Virus record (IMG/VR): IMGVR_UViG_3300038701_000867
Span: 1 to 34,931 of that record
From: a virus
Direction: 5' to 3' (one strand)
DNA length: 34,931 nucleotides
A program made the position numbers and the translations under genes. Every line of letters begins with the position of its first letter. Positions within the stretch are counted from its first letter, which is position 1. Below the pieces are notes generated by a model. It saw only the letters and a list, made by a program, of their open reading frames with translations. It did not search any database and was not told the DNA's origin. Of the stretch, positions 6,617 through 11,151 are shown in pieces.

Positions 6617-6807
6617 CCAAGAAGCTCAGCCGCCGCGCCGTGTGGAAACACAACAGTTATTTCGGATTTACCGCACTCACGCGCCGCAACATGCTTACCA
6701 TCGCTGACGCGCCATCCACCACGCCACGCGCTCAAGACCTCGCCAATCAAATCGCCGCCCTCACAACAGAGCTGGCAGAAGAACTCAAAACCAGGATTGA
6801 CCCATGA
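6613..6807 (+). CDS. Hypothetical small protein (64 aa)
   Basis: A basic N-terminal half (TKKLSRRAVWKHNSYFG) is joined to a C-terminal helix (AQDLANQIAALTTELAEELK) with heptad-like leucines that could form a short coiled coil. ATGA overlaps occur at both ends with the DUF6378 and ParB-methyltransferase genes. I do not recognise it; a small DNA-binding or adaptor role is only a guess. Confidence 0.55.
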   Translation: MTKKLSRRAVWKHNSYFGFTALTRRNMLTIADAPSTTPRAQDLANQIAALTTELAEELKTRIDP

Positions 6808-8102
6808 CCAGCGGAAATTTTGAAATCATCCCCGTAGCCAGCATTATCGTAAATCGGGAACAACGTCAGCGCCGTGAACTAGACAACATCGAGGAACTCG
6901 CAGAGTCAATCCGTGAACGCGGCCTCATCAATCCGATCGTGGTCACTCGTGATCTGGAGCTGGTCGCGGGAGAACGCCGCCTGACTGCCCACCAATATCT
7001 CAAGTTCGACAGTATCGCAGTTCAGTACGCCGAGGACATCGGCACGGATGAACTCTACATGATCGAACTCGAAGAGAACACCAAACGATCTGACCTCAAC
7101 TGGCAAGACAAGGTGCGCGCGGTTCACACCTACCACGAAATGCGGAAGGCGGCTGACGAAACGTGGAACCGCACCTCAACCGCTGAAGCCCTGAATATCG
7201 ACCGCGGGCTTTTGGTCAAGTATGAGCTGGTCCATGCTGCGATGGAGGAGGAAGTGCCGGAAGTCCTCGAAGCGCCGAAAATGAGTACAGCAATTAACTT
7301 TGCGACTCGTCGGCAGGAACGCAAAAAGGCCCACATTTCCGCCGATGTAATGGGCGCAATTGACGGTACGGCACCGGAACCCGATTTGGACGTTACCGGC
7401 GATGATACCCCCGCCCCATTGGCCCCCGCGACCCGTTGCGCGGCCATTTTGAACACCCAATTTCAACCATGGGCCAAAGACGTTCAAACCGAGCCATATA
7501 ACCTCATTCACTGTGATTTTCCATATGGAGTGAACGCGGGTGACACTAAAGGACAGTCAGGCGCGAAGCATCTCGGTGGATACTCTGACAAGCCGGAAGA
7601 CTATTTCAACCTCATCAATGATTTCTTGCGCCTACAAGACAACTTTATCTCTCCGTCCGCACACCTCATGTTCTGGTTCAGCATGGACTTCTATACTGAA
7701 ACCAAGGAACTGTTCACGCAGGGCGGTTGGCGGGTGAACCCTTTCCCGCTCATTTGGCACAAAACCGATAACGCAGGTATCTTGCCGGACCCTAACCGTG
7801 GCCCTCGGCGGACATACGAAACCGCCCTGCTCTGTACCCGCGGCGATCGGAAGGTAGTTAAGCCTGTGGCCAATTCACACGGCGCGCCTACCACCAAGAA
7901 GTTCCACATGAGTGAGAAGTCAGAGGACATGCTCCACCACTTCTTCCGTATGCTTGTCGATGAGAGTACACGGATGCTCGACCCTACATGCGGGAGCGGA
8001 ATGGCGGTTAAGGTCGCTGAGGCTATGGGCGCGGAAACAGCTGTCGGTCTCGAAATGGACTCTACATTCGCGGAGTCTGCAAAAACAAACTTGGGATTGT
8101 AG
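6804..8102 (+). CDS. ParB-like domain fused to N6-adenine DNA methyltransferase
   Basis: A 432-residue fusion. Residues about 1-110 are a ParB/Srx-type domain (IVVTRDLELVAGERRLTAH, with G56-E57-R58-R59). The C-terminal half is an adenine methyltransferase with motif IV D238-F-P-Y241 preceding motif I D393-P-T-C-G-S-G399, the order of beta-class enzymes. It would transfer a methyl group from S-adenosylmethionine to adenine N6 in DNA, probably protecting phage DNA from restriction or marking replication sites. No partner nuclease gene is nearby, so it looks like an orphan enzyme. ParB-methylase fusions are known in phages. A copy of the 31-bp palindrome lies six bases after its stop codon. Confidence 0.85.
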   Translation: MTSGNFEIIPVASIIVNREQRQRRELDNIEELAESIRERGLINPIVVTRDLELVAGERRLTAHQYLKFDSIAVQYAEDIGTDELYMIELEENTKRSDLNWQDKVRAVHTYHEMRKAADETWNRTSTAEALNIDRGLLVKYELVHAAMEEEVPEVLEAPKMSTAINFATRRQERKKAHISADVMGAIDGTAPEPDLDVTGDDTPAPLAPATRCAAILNTQFQPWAKDVQTEPYNLIHCDFPYGVNAGDTKGQSGAKHLGGYSDKPEDYFNLINDFLRLQDNFISPSAHLMFWFSMDFYTETKELFTQGGWRVNPFPLIWHKTDNAGILPDPNRGPRRTYETALLCTRGDRKVVKPVANSHGAPTTKKFHMSEKSEDMLHHFFRMLVDESTRMLDPTCGSGMAVKVAEAMGAETAVGLEMDSTFAESAKTNLGL

Positions 8103-8153: not shown

Positions 8154-9203
8154 ATGTTACCCGCAGTCGCACAAACCCGTCAACTATCTCCCAGACACAA
8201 ACCTGTCATGGTTGTAGGAGAGTACCTCAACGAAGCTGAATACATGACAGGAAAGCAAAACGCAGGCCCGACAGGAGGCATTCTGCTCGGCATCCTCCGT
8301 CAAGCTGGTATTGATCCCAAGGAATGCCATTTCACTCACGCAATCGCGCAGAAGCCCGCGGGTAATCGGTGGGAGTCTTTCTGTGAGGGGAAGGCAGAAG
8401 CACTGCCTAACTACCGGCAGTTTGCTAAAGGCAAATTCATCAGCAATAAATACGCCCCTGAGATCGAACGGTTGTTTCGTGAAATTGACGAGGTACAGCC
8501 CAACATCATCATCGCCACAGGCAATCTCGCTCTCTGGGCGCTGTGCAAAAAGACAGGCACTAAAAAGTATCGCGGCAGCCCGCTCCTCACGCATGATCAA
8601 AAGCACAAAGTGATCCCTACATGGGCACCGCAATCTATCATGCGTCAGTGGGAACTTCGCGTTATCACCCTCGCAGATTTCTCGAAGGCGCGGGAAGAGT
8701 CAAAGTTTCCTGAGCTACATCGCCCGTCCCATAAAATCTACATCGAGCCATCTGTCGAGGACATTGAACAGTTCTATATCGAGTACCTCCTCCCTTCCGA
8801 GTTCGTGTCCTGTGATATTGAAACAAAAGGCCTCACGATCACGGAGGTCGGCGTTGGTCCGGCTGACGGTAAACACGTCATGGTTATTCCCTTCTATGAT
8901 CGGGAACAGAAGGACGGGAACTACTGGCGAACCTTTGAAGAGGAGCGCGCTGCATGGGAATGGGTAAAGCGCATTTGTCTGCTTCCTACCGTAGGCCAGA
9001 ACTTCTCTTATGACATGCAGTACTTCCTCCGCTCTATGGGTATTCCGTGTCCGGCGTTTCTCGGAGACACAATGCTCCTACACCATGCCTTGCAGCCGGA
9101 ATTACAAAAAGGGCTAGGCTTCCTAGGCTCCATTTACACCAACGAGCCCTCGTGGAAATTCCTGCGCACCGACCACGCTACATTGAAACGAGAGGACGAC
9201 TAA
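8154..9203 (+). CDS. UDG-like domain fused to N-terminal part of PolA 3'-5' exonuclease
   Basis: A 349-residue protein of two parts. Residues about 16-190 resemble a family-4/5 uracil-DNA glycosylase fold (VMVVGEYL at 18-25, HFTHAIAQKP, PNIIIATGNLALWAL near 116-130, VIPTWAPQS near 153-161). The usual HPS-type active-site motif reads APQ here, so activity is doubtful. Residues about 200-349 hold exonuclease motif I (D221-I-E223) and motif II (GQNFSYD, N283 to D287), plus the GDTMLLHHAL strand. Motif III is missing and lies instead in the polymerase gene at 9538. The product should join that protein to build the proofreading domain. Start ATG 8154 has GGAGA upstream. The stop overlaps the next ATG (TAATG). 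Confidence 0.8.
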   Translation: MLPAVAQTRQLSPRHKPVMVVGEYLNEAEYMTGKQNAGPTGGILLGILRQAGIDPKECHFTHAIAQKPAGNRWESFCEGKAEALPNYRQFAKGKFISNKYAPEIERLFREIDEVQPNIIIATGNLALWALCKKTGTKKYRGSPLLTHDQKHKVIPTWAPQSIMRQWELRVITLADFSKAREESKFPELHRPSHKIYIEPSVEDIEQFYIEYLLPSEFVSCDIETKGLTITEVGVGPADGKHVMVIPFYDREQKDGNYWRTFEEERAAWEWVKRICLLPTVGQNFSYDMQYFLRSMGIPCPAFLGDTMLLHHALQPELQKGLGFLGSIYTNEPSWKFLRTDHATLKREDD

Positions 9204-9541
9204 TGTCTGAGCTTATTTATCTTGCATCCCCATACAGCAATCCTGATCCGCGTATTGAGCAGAAGCGCTACCGCGACGCTCTATCCTTCACAGGCACTGC
9301 TCTTCGCGCTGGCCGTAACATCTTCTCGCCTATTGCCTACGGCCACCAGTTTCAGATCAACGGCTACATGCAGGGGGATGCCGCATCGTGGCAGGCATTC
9401 AACCAGTCCATGATGGAGGCCTGCACTCTGTTTTGGGTACTGAAACTCCCAGGCTGGGAGGAATCAAAAGGGGTGATAGCTGAACTCGATTGGGCCATCA
9501 AGAACGAGAAATTCATCGAGTACATAGGACCAATGACATGA
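9203..9541 (+). CDS. DUF1937 protein, nucleoside deoxyribosyltransferase-like
   Basis: A 112-residue protein with the opening IYLASPYSNPDP, then FSPIAYGHQF and a C-terminal GWEESKGVIAELDWAIKN. This is the pattern of DUF1937, a relative of nucleoside 2-deoxyribosyltransferases with a Rossmann-like fold (YLASPY nucleotide loop, S-x-G-x-x-x-E helix). Nucleotide salvage or modification is a reasonable but unproven role. The gene stands exactly between the two polymerase genes, starting in the stop of the first (TAATG) and ending over the start of the second (ATGACATGA region, four-base overlap). No intron or homing-endonuclease sequence surrounds it. Confidence 0.75.
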   Translation: MSELIYLASPYSNPDPRIEQKRYRDALSFTGTALRAGRNIFSPIAYGHQFQINGYMQGDAASWQAFNQSMMEACTLFWVLKLPGWEESKGVIAELDWAIKNEKFIEYIGPMT

Positions 9542-11151
9542 GAATTTTTGACACAGCCGATCTCACAGAAACGTCCATGAAGAGCATGACCGCGAACGAA
9601 ATCGCGTGTATCTACAACGGTCTTGATGTGGCGGTAACAGCTGACATTTATACAACGCTGATCGCGCAGTTGGCTTCCGAGCCGGAAAACGTCAAGCAAA
9701 CTTATGCCGGATCACTGGCCAAACTTGCTCCGATCATGGAAATGTCTATGCGCGGAACTCTCATCGACGAGTACGCCCGACAGCACTCCATTCGCGATTT
9801 GGAAAACACCAAGCGAGATCTCGACCGGAAGTTTCAGCGCATTATGACTGAGGTGTTTGATTGCAACGTCAATTGGAACTCCCCGATGCAGCTTAAAAAC
9901 CTGTTCTACGGGATCATGGGCTGCAAGGAGATTAAGAAGCGCAACACCAAAGGGCAGTACGTGCCTTCTGTAGACAAAGAAGCACTGGCGGCATTTGAGC
10001 AGTATCTCTACGCTCGCCCGTTGGCAAAGATGGTAGGGATACTCCGTGACCTGCACAAACAGATCGCATTCCTCAAAACAGAGATCGACCCAGATCAGCG
10101 TATGCGTTGCAACTACAACATCGCGGGAACAAATACCGGACGCCTTAACTCAACCATGAGCGACTTCGGCACAGGGACCAACCTGCAGAACGTGAACCGC
10201 GCCCTACGCTACCCGTTTGTAGCGGACGAGGGAATGTACCTGCTCAACATCGACCTTGAGCAGGCGGACGGACGTAATGTCGGCGCGGTATGTCATGAGC
10301 TGTTCTATGACGCATCTCGGGAGCAGATTGCCAAAGCCCTCCGCCTCAAAGAGTGGGCAGGGCCGATCGGCGCTGAGTTTGCATCGACCTATCTGGATGC
10401 CTGTGAGGCGGGCGACCTACACACAACTGTCTGCAATATGGTGTGGCCAGAGGGACTCAACGGAACGCCGTGGCCGGAAGCTGAGGACGCATGGAAAAAA
10501 TTCTGCGATGGTATCATCGCGCACGGACAGGATAGCTTCCGCCAGTTATCCAAGAAAGGCGGCCACGGCACCAACTACTTCGGCACTCCCCGCACCATGG
10601 CAAAACACCTCCACATCAAGGCCAAGATCATTGAGGGGTTCCAGCAACGCTACTTCGGCCAGTTCCCTTGCATTTCTGCATGGCATGGCGCTACCATTGA
10701 TCAGGTCGAGGAGACAGGTATTGTCACTTCCCTGTTCGGGCGCCGCCGCCATTTCTGGGGACGAGCTAAAGACGCCAGTACCCATCGCAAGGCTATCGCA
10801 TATTGCGGGCAGTCTCCTACCGGCGAGCAGATCGACCGCGGTTTGCTACAGATCTGGCGTGAATTTCCTCAAGTACAGCTGCTCAATCAAGTACACGACT
10901 CAATCCTATTACAAGTCCCATTCAGTGAAGTAGAAGAACTAGCACCACGTATTCTGAAAGTCATGGAAGTAACGAGAACACTCAAAGGCGGGCGGCAATT
11001 TACCGTCCCACTCGATGCTGCAGGCGGTTGGAACTGGGGGTATCAAGACCCCGAGAAAGTTACCAACTATCACGGCTTGACGAAATGGCGAGGCAAGGAA
11101 GAGCGCGCTGCTCCTTCTGTCCGCAAGAGAAGTTTGAAAGATTATCTATGA
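9538..11151 (+). CDS. Family A DNA polymerase, polymerase part with exo motif III
   Basis: A 537-residue product. Near its N-terminus Y26-N-G-L-D30 followed by VAVT is exonuclease motif III (Y-x-x-x-D), the piece lacking from the protein at 8154. The polymerase core follows: T200-G-R202 region, motif A NID239LEQADGR, motif B R335-x3-K339 with GGHGTNYFG (His at the position of Phe762 in E. coli Pol I), and motif C QVHD454S, where the common HDE reads HDS. All catalytic aspartates are present. No 5'-3' exonuclease is seen. It should copy phage DNA in complex with the 8154 product. Start ATG 9538 overlaps the stop of the DUF1937 gene by four bases. Confidence 0.9.
   Translation: MRIFDTADLTETSMKSMTANEIACIYNGLDVAVTADIYTTLIAQLASEPENVKQTYAGSLAKLAPIMEMSMRGTLIDEYARQHSIRDLENTKRDLDRKFQRIMTEVFDCNVNWNSPMQLKNLFYGIMGCKEIKKRNTKGQYVPSVDKEALAAFEQYLYARPLAKMVGILRDLHKQIAFLKTEIDPDQRMRCNYNIAGTNTGRLNSTMSDFGTGTNLQNVNRALRYPFVADEGMYLLNIDLEQADGRNVGAVCHELFYDASREQIAKALRLKEWAGPIGAEFASTYLDACEAGDLHTTVCNMVWPEGLNGTPWPEAEDAWKKFCDGIIAHGQDSFRQLSKKGGHGTNYFGTPRTMAKHLHIKAKIIEGFQQRYFGQFPCISAWHGATIDQVEETGIVTSLFGRRRHFWGRAKDASTHRKAIAYCGQSPTGEQIDRGLLQIWREFPQVQLLNQVHDSILLQVPFSEVEELAPRILKVMEVTRTLKGGRQFTVPLDAAGGWNWGYQDPEKVTNYHGLTKWRGKEERAAPSVRKRSLKDYL

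Follow-up and report, generated by a model that had tools for sequence, protein, structure and literature searches.

The family-A DNA polymerase of a tailed-phage record, IMG/VR IMGVR_UViG_3300038701_000867, is encoded as two proteins on the plus strand, at positions 8154-9203 and 9538-11151, with a complete DUF1937 gene between them. The record, perhaps a fragment, was analysed over its whole length of 34,931 bases, referred to below as the window. It is very probable, in our judgement, that the two proteins are the subunits of one polymerase that was cut once, that proofreading is completed in trans, and that DUF1937 is a later, non-obligate resident of the break. The first protein (chain 1) would supply a uracil-DNA glycosylase (UDG)-like domain together with the motif I and II core of the exonuclease, and the third protein (chain 2) the motif III segment of the exonuclease and the whole polymerase domain. 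The cut would fall in a loop of the exonuclease domain, and the chains would assemble to one Klenow-like enzyme with its DEDDy site completed in trans. After a single cut in the ancestor of the clade, the joint would have tolerated small cargo genes; DUF1937 would have entered later and long stayed directly ahead of chain 2, being lost or replaced several times.

Anatomy and conservation of the two chains

Against the phrog_17 profile (phage DNA polymerase), chain 1 matches positions 480-788 and chain 2 positions 804-1231. These matches are consecutive and do not overlap, and the two proteins together therefore make up one polymerase, with its motifs intact. When the sequence and translations were rechecked, the coordinates, motifs and joints in a preliminary description of the locus proved exact to the base.

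Chain 1 (8154-9203, 349 residues) consists of the UDG-like domain (residues 13-189) and the first part of the exonuclease (residues 190-349). Its Pfam matches are UDG (2.7e-9) and a weak DNA_pol_A_exo1. In a single-chain AlphaFold2 model with a predicted local distance difference test score (pLDDT) of 92.6, residues 190-345 cover positions 324-484 of Klenow 1d8y (Z 13.7). Exonuclease motif I is D221-I-E223, within S219-C-D221-I-E223 (8814-8822), and motif II is N283-F-S-Y-D287, preceded by Q (9000-9014). Chain 2 (9538-11151, 537 residues) matches Pfam DNA_pol_A at 3.4e-32, and its single-chain model (pLDDT 95.0) covers about 470-928 of the same Klenow structure (Z 29.0), so that the motif III residues, Klenow Tyr497 and Asp501, fall in chain 2. 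Motif III is Y26-N-G-L-D30 (9613-9627). The polymerase motifs A (D239), B (R335...K339...Y347) and C (H453-D454) follow at 10252-10899, complete with the catalytic aspartates of the family, and their residues are kept in 94-103 of 103 split pairs.

These pairs come from searches of IMG/VR and of phage records in which the window proteins and alignments of relatives served as queries. Of more than 500 candidates, the nearest 80 per scan were fetched, and removal of near-copies left 103 non-redundant pairs with both halves readable, the window included. Near relatives are over-represented, since the sampling was seeded with the window proteins; the contigs are mostly metagenomic fragments, and genes in the gap were called mechanically. 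No DNA-level match to the window was found in phage records. Profile matching of both halves placed the same break in all 103 loci: the match to the N-terminal profile runs to the last profile positions or close to them, the C-terminal match begins at position 1-3 with few exceptions, and the start codon of chain 2 lies at nearly one aligned position. Both proteins were also compared with intact phage Pol A sequences and the break aligned, which gave a single shared cut position in the split relatives. One isolate, Caulobacter phage Kuura, has the same cut in a complete genome (OQ067476), and a prophage scan of bacterial genomes returned one contig only (L181), which is split and carries DUF1937. 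Single-frame relatives, found in a separate search, include MW202489, Microcystis phage Mel-JY34 and about 70 contigs. The locus was first described as a genuine two-chain PolA cut between exonuclease motifs II and III, which the consecutive profile matches and the shared break bear out. The cut was also called unusual; this is true against textbook PolA, but within this phage clade the cut is the rule.

All residues of a DEDDy exonuclease (D-x-E, D, Y-x3-D) are present, spread over the two chains. D221, E223 and D287 in chain 1 and D30 in chain 2 are invariant in 103 of 103 split pairs, as is N283, and Y26 varies once (102/103); D221 and E223 are also kept in 74 of 74 intact relatives. The conservation of exonuclease and polymerase motifs alike indicates that selection keeps the split active site together. 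From these residues and the complementary coverage of Klenow by the two models, we infer that the chains form one exonuclease fold. Proofreading in trans had been put forward in the preliminary description, and the conserved five residues with the paired single-chain structures give strong indirect evidence for this predicted activity. Additionally, exonuclease-half and polymerase-half distances correlate at 0.83 across split loci.

The genes are tightly joined. The C-terminal tail of chain 1, past W334-K335, and the stop-start joint with DUF1937 occupy 9159-9205, the joint itself being TAATG at 9201-9205; DUF1937 meets chain 2 at ATGA (9538-9541). As first noted, these overlaps leave no intron nor space for one, and the overlapping stop and start codons suggest coupled translation. 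Both chains are thus probably made from one coupled transcript. Fusion of the chains through readthrough or frameshift was considered and rejected: the three genes occupy three different frames and therefore cannot be joined by readthrough or one frameshift, and among split loci with no gene in the break only the TAAATG joints (L078 and L137) are in-frame. Chain 1 ends 14 residues past W334-K335, and chain 2 starts 25 residues ahead of Y26. The spacing from K335 to the motif III tyrosine is 31-45 residues in most split pairs versus 16-20 in nearly all intact relatives, so by alignment the split enzymes have some 15-20 additional linker residues around the new chain ends, relative to the intact enzymes.

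Origin of the cut and contents of the break

In a tree of 124 polymerases, one fully supported branch divides split from intact sequences. A smaller and more carefully built tree, with more distant single-chain phage polymerases as the root, has one split clade (100/100) with the intact outgroups outside it; some outgroup branches in this tree are long, and the place of the root among the intact sequences is therefore less sure. On the rooted tree the split has a single origin, ancestral to a large phage clade. DUF1937 is missing from the deepest split lineages, namely Kuura (L001), L025, L030 and L164. On the tree, the presence of DUF1937 in the break changes 9 times, and at least five of these changes are forced by well-supported branches. 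Given a single split clade whose deepest lineages lack DUF1937, the simplest reading is that the cut came first and DUF1937 later. The idea that the DUF1937 gene made the split is rejected, because the split is older on the rooted trees and exists with nothing between the halves.

Among the 103 loci, the break holds DUF1937 in 62 (a share of 60% that reflects the seeded sampling and does not estimate a population frequency), DUF7768 in 7, other genes in 27 and no gene in 7. Six of the seven empty joints are overlapping or abutting stop and start codons: TAATGA in L144 and L156, ATGA in L151 and L164, and the TAAATG mentioned above. The seventh, in L095, is a 57-base gap. The joint is a tolerated, reusable slot for small cargo genes.

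The cargo itself is varied. An Acb1-like anti-CBASS protein is encoded in the break of L027 (6478-6861; Pfam 2.5e-11), beside a DUF7768 gene, which suggests that the slot can carry counter-defence cargo. A further 18-member family of proteins of about 100 residues is represented by L106:5343-5648 and 17 similar genes; no Pfam or PADLOC match was obtained for the one member tried. Three break genes appear MazG-like by eye (L026:5969-6250, L090:3351-3731 and L174:2420-2770) and have no Pfam match above cut-off. PADLOC, where tried on break proteins, found nothing. HNH_3 genes lie in the break of four loci (L109:1548-1985, L160:2716-3150, L163:7008-7604 and L172:7028-7501), two of them just under the Pfam cut-off.

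These HNH_3 endonuclease genes raise the question of how the gene came to be cut. If a homing endonuclease made the cut, then DUF1937 would have taken over the site later, and such an origin would be compatible with the two-subunit explanation preferred here. There are parallels. In T4-like phages, inserted endonucleases have split nrdA, gene 60 and perhaps gene 43 (PMC2988022), and in SPO1 an intron endonuclease lies in the gene of a polymerase with identical domain order. However, no recognised endonuclease was found in the break of any of the deepest split branches, and those observed may be later invaders, as was considered possible for phage 25. The window's own break holds no endonuclease gene. 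An endonuclease origin is therefore a tentative possibility, with the balance somewhat against it.

The DUF1937 protein and the polymerase

The gene in the window's break (9203-9541, plus strand, 112 residues) encodes a nucleoside 2-deoxyribosyltransferase-like protein. It matches Pfam DUF1937 at 5e-12 (46.9 bits against a cut-off of 23), with weaker matches to DUF7768 and to Nuc_deoxyrib_tr, the latter at 15.5 bits and under its cut-off of 28.8. It also matches phrog_355, annotated as nucleoside 2-deoxyribosyltransferase (1e-11), and a solved relative of the DUF1937 family, PDB 1t1j (8e-19), which is listed only as a hypothetical protein. The protein therefore falls outside the curated nucleoside 2-deoxyribosyltransferases and appears to share a likeness with them only. 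The S, G and E of its signature, S88-x-G90-x3-E94 (9464-9484), are invariant in 61 break-resident DUF1937 proteins, which argues for a working protein and not debris. Judging only from its superfamily, it is probably a separate nucleotide-metabolism enzyme of deoxyribosyltransferase or N-hydrolase type. DUF1937 was not named in any paper of the open-access literature searched.

The preliminary description had proposed that the middle protein may belong to the polymerase complex. The proposal is not supported: in 41 of the 103 split loci the break lacks DUF1937, and some of these loci belong to complete or nearly complete genomes that have no copy elsewhere. The many loci without the gene rule out an obligate subunit for the split enzyme in general. 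Most of the 40-55 kb records without a break DUF1937 were searched whole, and none had the gene elsewhere (alignment A3, positive controls recovered). The sequence of DUF1937 also tracks the polymerase less closely than a neighbouring gene does, which is only suggestive: polymerase distances correlate at 0.58-0.64 with those of the downstream DUF3987 gene and at 0.33-0.38 with those of DUF1937, and at equal length the values are 0.67 for the exonuclease, 0.52 for the DUF3987 gene and 0.36 for DUF1937. DUF1937 is best read as a long-term, swappable break resident and not an obligate subunit.

A narrower role is conceivable. In the clade with the gene, the DUF1937 protein might serve as a third polymerase subunit or bind the polymerase as a partner, for instance to clear unwanted nucleotides at the active site. 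In all 62 loci that have it, the break is the gene's sole position within the fetched stretches, and in 56 of the 62 it abuts or overlaps the start of chain 2. Extra DNA settles far more often between the exonuclease half and DUF1937 (48 loci with extra DNA only there) than between DUF1937 and the polymerase half (2 loci). The cousin family DUF7768 fills the same place in its 7 loci, and the three intact relatives with DUF1937 nearby have it upstream of the polymerase, within about 1 kb. Against this stand the many split loci without the gene, a split that predates its arrival, and a sequence that follows the polymerase no better than does a separate downstream gene. Such a subunit is therefore unlikely. 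Also unlikely is the idea that, in the large sub-clade with the gene, the DUF1937 protein works with the split polymerase, for example as a nucleotide N-hydrolase or transferase that binds to it and removes or alters nucleotides at the fork. If true, such cooperation would explain the break-only site ahead of the polymerase half and the substitution by DUF7768 elsewhere.

Several observations weigh against the explanation preferred here, a two-subunit enzyme with DUF1937 as a non-obligate resident. That DUF1937 occurs nowhere but in the break, and mostly tight against the start of chain 2, would also fit a functional link to the polymerase. The UDG-like part of chain 1 itself gives an equal-length correlation of only 0.37, so the low value for DUF1937 is no proof of exchange. 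With regard to assembly, the top inter-chain coupling score was 0.240 versus 0.235 in a pairing-shuffled control, and the motif III segment was enriched in mutual information, likewise not clearly above such a control; coevolution is thus no independent proof of contact between the chains.

Proofreading in trans and comparison with known systems

If the split had abolished the exonuclease, then the UDG-like domain or DNA binding might be the sole reason that chain 1 is retained. The UDG-like domain (8190-8720), overlooked in the preliminary description, is of the family-4 type: besides its Pfam match, the chain 1 model superposes on the UDG 1ui1 over 152 residues at 1.8 A (Z 19.9), which places it in the UDG fold. 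The catalytic motifs of that family, G-E-x-P-G and H-P-S, are replaced in the window by G-E-Y-L-N and A158-P, and the domain scores under the NCBIfam family 4 cut-off. With the usual catalytic histidine missing, the function of chain 1 has partly changed, which would fit a loss of proofreading. However, this histidine varies freely among the split relatives (present in only 63/103, gone in about 40%), whereas each of the five exonuclease catalytic residues is kept in 102-103 of 103; the strict conservation of the latter is therefore not a sampling effect. A dead exonuclease is thus very unlikely, and the UDG-like domain may serve in DNA binding or uracil sensing instead of excision.

Two further explanations are dismissed as next to impossible. 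Rejoining of the chains by a split intein or trans-spliced intron has a parallel in the putative split intein in PolB of phage MIJ3 (PMC6892783), but neither chain has an intein-length extension, the stop-start overlaps and empty joints leave no space, and no Rfam match to an intron (group I or other) was found in the window. Similarly, a sequencing or assembly error or a decayed gene, including the frameshift or misassembly first named as what could overturn the split, is countered by the identical break and intact reading frames of the 103 non-redundant loci, complete isolate genome included.

Split phage polymerases are already known, whereas the open-access literature searched gave no description of this cut position, its age or its spread. 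The 43A and 43B products of gene 43 in Aeromonas phages 25 and 44RR likewise form a two-protein replicative polymerase, and the gap between them may hold a foreign gene (PMC2988022), but that enzyme is of family B (PolB), unrelated and differently cut. The split proteins of phage 25, which is T4-like, co-purify and show polymerase activity (PMC2988022) and are thus a published precedent for assembly of the chains. In the OM43 phages MEP401 and MEP402, PolA also lies in two open reading frames with a small one between them, as in most members of their group; in these phages one frame holds the exonuclease with the N-terminal portion of the polymerase domain, and the cut is inside that domain (PMC10580990). 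Kuura is cut at the same place as the window (identity 38% and 32%), but has two other small genes in the break and no DUF1937 in its genome. In its annotation only the C-terminal half is called polymerase and the exonuclease half is a hypothetical protein; gene surveys can thus miss the exonuclease half. The UDG-exonuclease-polymerase single chains (phrog_17; SPO1 gp31, MW202489 and Mel-JY34) have the same domain order and stand outside the split clade, and differ in having one reading frame, with an intron in SPO1, and the shorter linker spacing. ExnV1 (PDB 7r0t) is likewise a phage PolA exonuclease domain on its own polypeptide, but a full one that includes the residues matching Klenow Asp501 and Tyr497, and according to its authors the gene is truncated (PMC9629493).

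Differently placed cuts were also encountered. The same kind of polymerase is split after exonuclease motif III in ctLwi270 (MW202554; L264:1727-4364). L201 and L247 have another cut, in which the N-terminal profile match stops ahead of the exonuclease core and about 240 bp separate the open frames. The polymerase of Vibrio phage VS-ABTNL-3 is cut within the polymerase domain, distinct from the window's cut.

Elsewhere in the window, the minus strand carries terminase, portal, capsid, tape-measure and tail-fibre genes, and the plus strand a replication module. Immediately upstream of the polymerase, at 6804-8102, a ParB N-terminal domain is fused to an N6/N4 DNA methylase, and a methylase or ParB-like gene is annotated at the same place in several relatives.

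Overall, the locus shows that a cut through the proofreading site of a replicative polymerase can be sustained over a long radiation, the catalytic residues being retained on either side. As a natural two-piece PolA, it would allow proofreading to be tested by adding or omitting one chain. The joint is also a marker: the genes parked there, among them DUF1937, DUF7768, HNH endonucleases and the Acb1-like anti-CBASS gene, are candidates for work in nucleotide metabolism or counter-defence.

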